A DNA stretch of 36,551 nucleotides from a virus: positions 1 through 36,551 of IMG/VR virus record IMGVR_UViG_3300019926_000038. One strand, 5' to 3'. The position numbers and the translations under genes were made by a program. The notes under the pieces were generated by a model. It searched no databases, was not told the DNA's origin, and saw nothing but the letters and a program-made list of their open reading frames with translations. Of this stretch, positions 14,730 through 16,278 are shown in pieces; position 1 is the stretch's first letter, and each line of letters starts with the position of its first letter.

Positions 14730-14762
14730 GGGCCTGTGTGGTCGTGTGAAGTAAATACCGCG

Positions 14763-14798
14763 ACGGGGCGAGCACAAGCAAAGCTCGTGCGGCCCCGT
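14763..14798 (-). ncRNA. Nested intergenic hairpin
   Basis: Stems pair 14763-14769 with 14792-14798 (ACGGGGC/GCCCCGT), 14772-14775 with 14787-14790 (GCAC/GTGC) and 14777-14779 with 14783-14785, closing on a three-base loop (AAA on plus, TTT on minus). There is no U-tract on the minus strand, so this is not a standard terminator. It separates two early genes and may be an RNA processing or stability element. Confidence 0.6.
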
Positions 14799-14828
14799 TT
14801 CGCCCTGTGGGGGCTCGTCAGGCGGGTT

Positions 14829-15095: not shown

Positions 15096-15288
15096 AGAAG
15101 TCGGTGGCGACGGTGTACTTCTCTTCAATCTGCTCCATCTGCCCCTCGGTCACGCTGTAACGGTTCTGCGGGCCGAAGGTCGTGAACTGCTTCTCGTAGA
15201 GGTGCTCGGCCAGCTCCTGTTCGGTGGCAATCGCAAGCCCTGAGGTGGCGTCAATAATGCGGAACGCGGCTGTCCCCAGAGGGTACAT
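15094..15288 (-). CDS. First gene of the minus arm, small hypothetical protein
   Basis: This 64-aa protein starts MYPLGTAAFRIIDATSG and has a helical, charged remainder (TEQELAEHLYEKQF, VTEGQMEQIEEKYTVATDF). It is divergent from the HTH gene with a 34-base spacer, the usual place for a Cro/cII-type or early regulator, but no HTH is obvious. Its stop overlaps one of the operator-like repeats. Confidence 0.5.
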   Translation of the reverse strand: MYPLGTAAFRIIDATSGLAIATEQELAEHLYEKQFTTFGPQNRYSVTEGQMEQIEEKYTVATDF

Positions 15289-15322
15289 ACACTACGATAG
15301 AAATGCAATAGCCTGCCAGCAA
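15289..15322. promoter_or_regulatory. Divergent intergenic spacer (expected early promoters)
   Basis: On a circular map all transcription diverges from these 34 bases. They are too short for two full promoters, so at least one promoter should overlap a coding region or start near the codon. I cannot identify -10/-35 elements with confidence. Confidence 0.35.
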
Positions 15323-15517
15323 ATGACCACCAAGACCGTGTCACACCGCGAACGGCTGCGCGATCTTATCGAAGACCACGACGTCTCGCCGTGGAAACTC
15401 GCCGACGAGCTGGGCCGGGACCACAAGTATTTTGCCCGCAAGATGAGCGGCGACCGCCCGACCTACCTTACAGACGTGTACGCGGTCGAGCACGCGCTGG
15501 AATGTGAAGAAGTGTGA
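15323..15517 (+). CDS. Cro/C1-type helix-turn-helix regulator
   Basis: This 64-aa protein starts at ATG 15323 (MTTKTVSHRERL). It is a single small HTH domain: LRDLIEDHDVSPWKLADELGRDHKYFARKMSGDRP, with helices 2 and 3 around SPWKLADELGRDHKYFARKM and a C-terminal helix DVYAVEHALE. It heads the plus arm and faces the divergent spacer, so it likely controls early transcription. No integrase accompanies it. Confidence 0.7.
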   Translation: MTTKTVSHRERLRDLIEDHDVSPWKLADELGRDHKYFARKMSGDRPTYLTDVYAVEHALECEEV

Positions 15518-15621: not shown

Positions 15622-15852
15622 ATGACGCACTTCGACCTCACTTACGACGCCGAGACGGAACTGGAAGGCAACCTGAACGACGACACGTTCAACGAGCTGC
15701 ATCCCGAGGGTGGGATCATTGAGGGATTCGTAGAGATGGGCGATTCGGTGTTCGTGCAGGTGTTCGACTTCGCCGAGGGGCAGGTCGTACAAGATGCGGC
15801 TGGCCTCTATAGCGATACGCTGGCGAATGACGTGCGAGACGCTGATTGGTAG
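15622..15852 (+). CDS. Small acidic hypothetical protein
   Basis: This 76-aa protein starts at ATG 15622 (MTHFDLTYDAETELEG). A GTG start at 15514 would add a basic stretch made from the operator-like repeats, so I prefer the shorter form. The product is very acidic and strand-rich (GFVEMGDSVFVQVFDFAEGQVVQDAAG). It ends six bases before the first tRNA-like gene and may share its transcript. Confidence 0.55.
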   Translation: MTHFDLTYDAETELEGNLNDDTFNELHPEGGIIEGFVEMGDSVFVQVFDFAEGQVVQDAAGLYSDTLANDVRDADW

Positions 15853-15858
15853 GACGCG

Positions 15859-15978
15859 GCGGGTGAGGCGAAATGGTACACGCGCCCTAGAGTGCCATGA
15901 AATGCAGTGTGTTGATATCAGCACTGTAACATGGGTGACACCTAGGGAGGCTTGATGGTTCGAGTCCATCCACCCGCT
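15859..15978 (+). tRNA. tRNA-like RNA 1 with a long hairpin in place of the anticodon loop
   Basis: The acceptor stem is perfect over 7 bp (GCGGGTG 15859-15865 with CACCCGC 15971-15977), with T as discriminator. The T arm is perfect (GATGG 15954-15958 / CCATC 15966-15970, loop TTCGAGT). The D arm has GCG/CGC and a GG-containing loop. The anticodon stem (CCCTA 15885-15889 / TAGGG 15943-15947) does not close on 7 bases but holds 53 bases that themselves fold: CCATG/CATGG, then TGCAGTG/CACTGTA and a TTGATAT loop. There is no encoded CCA (TCAA follows). Acceptor and U73 recall tRNA-Gly. Length is 120 nt instead of ~73. It is not a normal decoding tRNA. Confidence 0.75.
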
Positions 15979-15990
15979 CAATATATGACT

Positions 15991-16085
15991 GCGGCCGAGC
16001 TCCCGGCGAGCGCCACCTCTCCTTCTTTTTTGGGCGAAGGGGCGACCGAGGTGGAGGGCAGCTTCGAGTGCTGCCGGCCGCGCCA
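15991..16085 (+). tRNA. tRNA-like RNA 2 with a long hairpin in place of the anticodon loop
   Basis: The acceptor stem is perfect over 7 bp (GCGGCCG 15991-15997 with CGGCCGC 16075-16081), followed by G and an encoded CCA (16083-16085). The T arm is perfect (GCAGC/GCTGC, loop TTCGAGT 16063-16069). The D arm is short (GCTC/GAGC, loop CCGGC). The anticodon-stem position pairs CCACCTC (16013-16019) with GAGGTGG (16048-16054), and the interior holds a second stem CCTTC/GAAGG with loop TTTTTTGGGC. There is no 7-base anticodon loop. It lies 12 bases after tRNA-like RNA 1. A class II tRNA fold with a normal anticodon was tried and failed. Confidence 0.7.
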
Positions 16086-16101: not shown

Positions 16102-16278
16102 ATGATTGACCCGCCACGATGGGAAGACGTTCTGGACGAGGAGAGCATCCCTCCCGGCCTCGTGGCGGACTGGATGCGCTATTGGGAATCGGTGCCAGAC
16201 TCCCCCTCGCTCGCACGAGCGGAGGGTTGCGCCGACGATGCAATGGCGCTGCTAGAAGCGACGATGCCTGAGCCGTAG
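16102..16278 (+). CDS. Small acidic hypothetical protein
   Basis: This 58-aa protein starts at ATG 16102 (MIDPPRWEDVLDEESIPPG). A longer frame from 15985 would lie entirely over tRNA-like RNA 2, so the shorter start is chosen. The product is acidic and helical (ADDAMALLEATMPEP). It follows the tRNA-like genes and precedes a hairpin. Confidence 0.5.
   Translation: MIDPPRWEDVLDEESIPPGLVADWMRYWESVPDSPSLARAEGCADDAMALLEATMPEP

Follow-up and report, generated by a model that had tools for sequence, protein, structure and literature searches.

The described RNAs nearest to the element reported here are the species 1 and species 2 RNAs of phage T4 and, in logic, tmRNA (SsrA). The T4 RNAs (rnaC, 139 nt; rnaD, 119 nt) are small, stable, and encoded beside the phage tRNAs, and rnaC ends in a tRNA-like T arm (CCGGG-TTCGAAT-CCCGG); for these two RNAs, too, we know of no function. 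In tmRNA, a tRNA-like end without an anticodon is joined to pseudoknots and functions without codon recognition; the D arm of tmRNA is reduced, its identity is alanine, and a reading frame for the tag lies within its several hundred nucleotides. Bacterial Y RNAs, the partners of Ro60/TROVE proteins, are non-coding tRNA mimics with a tRNA-like module at the far end of the Ro60-binding stem. TROVE proteins, whose cellular work involves a tRNA-like partner, can also be encoded by jumbo phages (PMC7824862). ROOL and GOLLD of phages and prophages, for which structures are available (PMC12286853), are structured non-coding RNAs found near tRNA genes.

The DNA analyzed here is a 36,551-bp viral record from IMG/VR, referred to as a whole as the window. 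A tRNA-like RNA of 120 bases (RNA 1; 15859–15978, + strand) was delimited by its fold, a structural scan, and a covariance model, and runs from the acceptor stem to the discriminator U73, with no CCA encoded. The first-pass annotation had placed the RNA at these coordinates and had described its arms correctly. The acceptor strands GCGGGTG (15859–15865) and CACCCGC (15971–15977) form seven of seven Watson–Crick pairs, and the T arm GATGG-TTCGAGT-CCATC (15954–15970) is paired in five of five positions, so that the 7-bp acceptor and the 5-bp T arm with its TTCRANT loop are canonical tRNA features. Position 8, a near-universal U in tRNAs, is an A (15866). The D arm GCG-AAATGGTACA-CGC (15868–15883) is of the leucine type, with A14, A15, G18, and G19, and its 3-bp stem is formed by GCG/CGC (15868–15870/15881–15883). 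U48 is also found. The first-pass annotation had mentioned neither U48 nor A8, U73, and the missing CCA.

The canonical 5-bp anticodon stem with a 7-nt loop, U33, and a purine at position 37 is absent in RNA 1. The stem in this position extends into a predicted hairpin of 63 nt (15885–15947), and the D and T arms are 70 nt apart with no anticodon arm between them. A 6-bp stem, CCCTAG/CTAGGG (15885–15890/15942–15947), is followed by GTG/CAC, CCATG/CATGG, and an 8-bp terminal helix, which closes on a loop of 10 nt. A folded insert with TTGATAT in its terminal loop had been proposed, and both features were found, while the length enclosed by the 6-bp stem is 51 nt and not the 53 nt first given. 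RNA 1 has a minimum free energy (MFE) of −51.6 kcal/mol vs. −37.1 for shuffles (z −3.8; one of 200 shuffles was as good). The explicit cloverleaf reaches −49.1, and the MFE structure deviates from it around the T arm only. For the inserted domain, a nested fold (−28.1) was favored over the best pseudoknot (−16.9). RNA 1 is a structure without a usable anticodon loop, in agreement with the earlier judgment that it is not a normal decoding tRNA. ARAGORN reported zero tRNA genes and no tmRNA at RNA 1, and an Rfam search with E-values up to 10 gave no match to it, neither to RF00005 nor to the tmRNA model.

Each of the known systems shares part of this plan. RNA 1 is similar in length to the small T4 RNAs, but the rnaC acceptor contains mismatches, and neither rnaC nor rnaD combines a full acceptor with the leucine-type D arm and the T arm of RNA 1. 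It shares a tRNA-like end without an anticodon with tmRNA, from which it differs in its length of 120 nt, its leucine-type D arm, and the lack of a tmRNA call by Rfam or ARAGORN. Bacterial tRNA-Leu is alike in D-arm sequence, A14, A15, U48, and G18G19, whereas RNA 1 has no anticodon loop, carries A8 and U73, and places ~73 nt between the D arm and GGTTCRA, compared with ~34 nt in tRNA-Leu. ROOL and GOLLD are several hundred nucleotides long, have no tRNA-like ends, and fold differently. Unlike in the Y RNAs, the acceptor of RNA 1 is formed by the ends of the RNA, and the window proteins that were searched included no TROVE protein.

The window encodes a large terminase, portal, tape measure, DnaB-like helicase, SSB, DnaD-like loader, primase zinc finger, and DNA methyltransferase, and its replication genes are of bacterial type (DnaB, SSB, primase zinc finger). 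The leftmost ORF resembles a secreted bacterial protein with a CxxCH motif; therefore, the record may include host DNA. No relative of this gene was found in the genome contigs, and a separate search gave only a distant Caballeronia homologue at 26% identity. Scans of viral contigs with SSB and DnaB and blastn against phages revealed no close relatives of the phage. Its terminase relatives are distant (≤60% identity, over parts of the protein), and a scan for tRNA-like elements at their loci gave chance matches for the most part. One of these distant terminase relatives (G021) carries an RNA of class A, defined below. No integrase was found among the annotated window proteins. A reading of RNA 1 as an integration site (attP) was set aside on this ground and because both tRNA halves are present.

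RNA 1 lies with a second tRNA-like RNA in a 249-nt gap between co-directional genes. The upstream ORF (76 aa; 15622–15852, + strand) belongs to no family and ends with its stop codon 6 nt before RNA 1; further upstream, the locus is preceded by a small gene (15224–15517) weakly similar to phage repressors. The downstream ORF (58 aa; 16102–16278, + strand) is likewise without a family. RNA 2 (15991–16082, + strand), recovered by the structural scan, begins after a spacing of 13 nt and is followed immediately by an encoded CCA (16083–16085, + strand). Its acceptor is GCGGCCG/CGGCCGC, its D stem CTC/GAG, and its T arm GCAGC-TTCGAGT-GCTGC, and it has G73 and shares A8 and G9 with RNA 1. A 7-bp stem, CCACCTC/GAGGTGG, with an inner hairpin occupies the anticodon position. 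RNA 2 is less certain than RNA 1 because its cloverleaf (−39.8) differs from its MFE structure (−49.4), and we regard it as a probable second, weaker tRNA-like RNA. The scan for an acceptor and T arm on both strands of the window returned RNA 1 and RNA 2 only, with 0.4 matches per window expected from block shuffles. A promoter scan showed no sigma-70-like site close to either RNA. Elsewhere in the window, a sub-threshold match to a hammerhead ribozyme was observed at 14755–14827 on the − strand (22.8 bits, E 0.31).

RNAs with a leucine-type D arm and a long insert were collected with the pattern GGCG-N3-4-TGGTANACGC-N55-85-GGTTCRANTCC, which leaves out the acceptor and covers just part of the T stem. 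At least 120 viral contigs matched (class A). The spacing between the D and T arms is 55–85 nt in class A vs. ~34 nt in normal tRNA-Leu, and RNA 1, with 73 nt between the D arm and GGTTCRA, falls inside the class A range. Approximately 88% of the listed matches pair in both the acceptor and the T stem (14 of ~121 fail), and this rate is a fairer figure than the 99.2% of stem cells that pair in an alignment of 64 diverse members, since the aligned members were selected for pairing. Double changes were found in 260 cells of this alignment compared with 58 in shuffles. The first-pass annotation had suggested a covariance search, with loss of compensatory pairing in relatives to count against its reading; in the wider class, strong compensatory pairing of the acceptor and T arms was observed instead. 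The expectation that relatives would come from halophilic phages was not borne out, as they are spread across Firmicutes, Bacteroidota, and many metagenomes. Specifically, the insert pattern occurred in five of 395 Bacteroidota genomes, and the reversed control in none.

The D stem is invariant among the 64 members, and T at position 48, A14, G18, and G19 are near-exceptionless in the class A alignment. Retention of the T before the T stem and of A14/A15 is consistent with a conserved elbow. The acceptor varies, the most frequent being AGTCAGG/CCTGACT, and the inserts have no common sequence motif (124 of 144 are non-redundant). Class A members often sit in phage tRNA arrays, and several occur within one array in L086, L092, and L176. 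Among 147 insert-bearing sequences compared, 146 have T8 and RNA 1 is the lone exception; A73 is present in 126 of 147 class A sequences. A pattern allowing A8 matched one other contig (L325), and a stricter pattern modelled on RNA 1 had no match. L325, a viral contig of 124 kb, contains several insert-bearing tRNA-like RNAs one after another (1426–2330, + strand), a locus in which ARAGORN detects one tRNA only.

Two groups of sequences were set aside, namely tRNA-Leu genes with internal duplications (L226, L256, L265, L297, L308) and RNAs of gammaproteobacteria whose anticodon loop is normal (the L230 group). The latter, from metagenome-assembled genomes (L230, L234, L249, L252, L273, L275, L310, L319), are tRNA-Leu-like with long variable arms, and their anticodon loops read as alanine or serine (GGC, CGC, GGA). 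The Bacteroidota search also returned a tRNA-Leu-like gene common to L278 (150–259, + strand) and L344, one of which is Chlorobaculum sp. 24CR. It combines an anticodon-arm hairpin with a normal-looking long variable arm and is the nearest nested counterpart of RNA 1.

A covariance model (R1) was built from the 64 class A RNAs with the window excluded. R1 detects RNA 1 at 47.3 bits (E 2.3e-10), the next match scoring 10.9. It also scores the T4 tRNA-Leu at 41 bits, so a match demonstrates a leucine-type body with a long insert and not a specific family. The T4 rnaC gave a weak match at 21.4 bits (E 6e-4), which is a match to the model and not a direct alignment with RNA 1. By insert length, RNA 1 groups with class A. 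It is an outlier of that class, departing from it in A8, U73, and a nested hairpin in place of a pseudoknot. The exact T-arm/acceptor pattern of RNA 1 was unmatched in the viral contigs; the pairing and covariation evidence concerns the wider class, with no close homologue of RNA 1 itself found.

A scan of genome contigs and a search of a phage collection yielded a second class (class B), with the D arm GGCGGAAWAGGTAGACGC, a 6-bp T stem, and a TGCAAAT loop. Class B occurs in Firmicutes genomes, where the loci are probably prophages, and was read in sequence in the cultured phages SPP1, Leuconostoc Ln-9, phi3T, and SPG24. In SPP1, phi3T, and SPG24, the RNA is unannotated; in SPP1, it lies between genes 9 and 11. 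The D-arm search also matched Listeria, Enterococcus, and Lactobacillus phages and others (these are D-arm matches, the whole RNA not being checked in each), and most matches in phages have no annotated feature at the site. A frequent context is between a late transcription activator and HNH/terminase genes, or just before a scaffold gene.

The inserts of both classes are structured in a recurrent manner. A helix ending exactly 2 nt before the T stem is enriched compared with shuffled inserts (z −20.8 in class B, −11.6 in class A), and a second helix tends to cross the helix adjoining the T stem (paired t −5.8 in class B, −3.6 in class A). The pseudoknot is a tendency, being strong in 50% of class A and 75% of class B. 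Six related class B RNAs have three consecutive helices that cross each other and show covariation. Over the whole structure of these six, 16 of 35 pairs change on both sides and 97.1% of cells pair, a covariation score that no shuffle reached; the covarying elements include the acceptor, the T stem, and the crossing insert helices. These are genuine structured RNAs. The acceptor sequence varies freely in both classes. SPP1 (L203) and the herellevirus SPG24 (L328), both phages of B. subtilis, have near-identical inserted domains on different acceptor stems, which suggests exchange or a common host target.

In the relatives, the tRNA body covaries and the inserted domain is variable. The conserved part is the target of tRNA maturation enzymes and elbow-binding proteins, and the variable part is what decoding needs; therefore, a scaffold processed as a tRNA is favored. 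We consider it about an even chance that RNA 1 is a non-decoding RNA matured like a tRNA, in which a leucine-type body carries an exchangeable functional domain. RNA 1 would be co-transcribed with the adjoining genes and excised by host tRNA-maturation enzymes, with RNase P acting at the 5′ end and RNase Z or exonucleases, followed by CCA addition, at the 3′ end. The elbow would be retained for folding, stability, and recognition, and the anticodon arm would have been replaced by the exchangeable domain, which in RNA 1 would be the 63-nt hairpin. The most likely role proposed for this domain resembles that of a scaffolded small RNA, namely the binding of a factor from the host or the phage. 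Of the three early guesses (scaffold, decoy, or intron), the natural tRNA scaffold is the best supported in that the body is kept while the insert changes freely; the function of the insert is a proposal. That the acceptor varies so freely speaks against one fixed aminoacylation identity throughout the class. Members of class A, most of which have A73, could be chargeable, and RNA 1, with U73, is probably not charged.

The same retention of the body could reflect a decoy or antagonist: RNA 1 would imitate a tRNA but resist cleavage, and would engage a host tRNA-acting enzyme (an anticodon nuclease, another tRNA-targeting toxin, or a modification enzyme), with the inserted domain adding specificity. 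The target of anticodon nucleases is gone from RNA 1, the inserts vary strongly among phages as an arms race would predict, and phage tRNAs have already been argued to evade anticodon nucleases through changes in the anticodon loop (PMC10264068). However, these nucleases require the loop that is absent here, so a decoy would have to work via the elbow or the acceptor, and the acceptor sequence is freely variable in classes A and B. Moreover, no defence or counter-defence gene adjoins RNA 1 among its neighbors in the window, and we consider this explanation unlikely. Tight packing of RNA 1 and RNA 2 between co-directional genes, and the recurrence of class B near terminase, HNH, and late-activator genes, would also fit a tRNA shape that merely punctuates a polycistronic early transcript as an RNase P/RNase Z cutting signal, the insert having no further role. 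An acceptor and a T stem suffice for such cutting, yet the D stem is invariant and class B inserts keep covarying crossing helices that punctuation does not need, which makes this explanation rather improbable.

Features particular to RNA 1 bear on two other explanations. Its A8 and U73 are off the tRNA norms, its insert was found in no relative, and RNA 2 is poor as a cloverleaf, all as expected if a captured leucine-type gene had lost its anticodon arm to an insertion and were decaying; recent decay could give the appearance of RNA 1. Against this, no pair is broken in the acceptor or T stem, the insert folds well, the element is one of two arranged in tandem, and selection for pairing acts on the class overall, so we hold a degenerate tRNA to be decidedly improbable. 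An intron-bearing tRNA, also among the early guesses, is possible on paper, as removal of 44 nt would leave a 7-nt valine (GAC) loop, GTGACAC or ATGACAC, and the helices around CCATG/CATGG bear a loose resemblance to a bulge-helix-bulge. Further comparison did not support it. A canonical loop can be obtained in 60% of shuffled inserts as well, the anticodon stem of the product would have 6 bp, or 5 bp preceded by an additional base, and RNA 2 permits no such excision. A group I intron would need more sequence than the insert offers, and Rfam detected none; to our knowledge, bulge-helix-bulge intron splicing does not occur in bacteria, and the replication genes of the phage are bacterial in type. 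We therefore judge an intron very improbable indeed.

Returning to the tRNA-processed scaffold, it seems that phages put the tRNA body to a use other than decoding, because many of them, familiar laboratory phages included, carry RNAs on the same plan. More broadly and more tentatively, tailed phages of many hosts may share an unnamed class of non-decoding RNAs in which a tRNA-Leu platform bears fast-changing, often multiply pseudoknotted domains acting on host factors, for example in anti-defence, and of which RNA 1 would be a hairpin variant. In Rfam and the open-access literature (subscription papers and preprints lying outside the search), no named family for this class was found, and the entire class stands a fair chance of being new. 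The tRNA clusters of phages are usually explained by codon supply or by resistance of their tRNAs to nucleases. If many cluster members, and lone genes in small phages, are anticodon-less bodies, an RNA class was missed because tRNA finders discard its members and Rfam has no model for it. The class may also bear on the unexplained stable RNAs of T4, and since the Bacillus subtilis phages SPP1, phi3T, and SPG24 carry it, its function is accessible to direct experiment.

Smaller tRNA-like elements were also observed. L073, a phage contig whose terminase is related to that of the window phage, carries a 55-nt element (66–120, − strand) with acceptor, D, and T arms and no anticodon arm. In SPP1 (L203; X89721), a mini element of <50 nt (~722–770) lies directly downstream of the class B RNA; it has an acceptor and a T arm, at most a tiny D arm, and no anticodon arm, and gives a weak Rfam tmRNA match. 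Finally, an 8-kb prophage-like locus (L258) contains a class B RNA alongside ROOL and skipping-rope RNAs.
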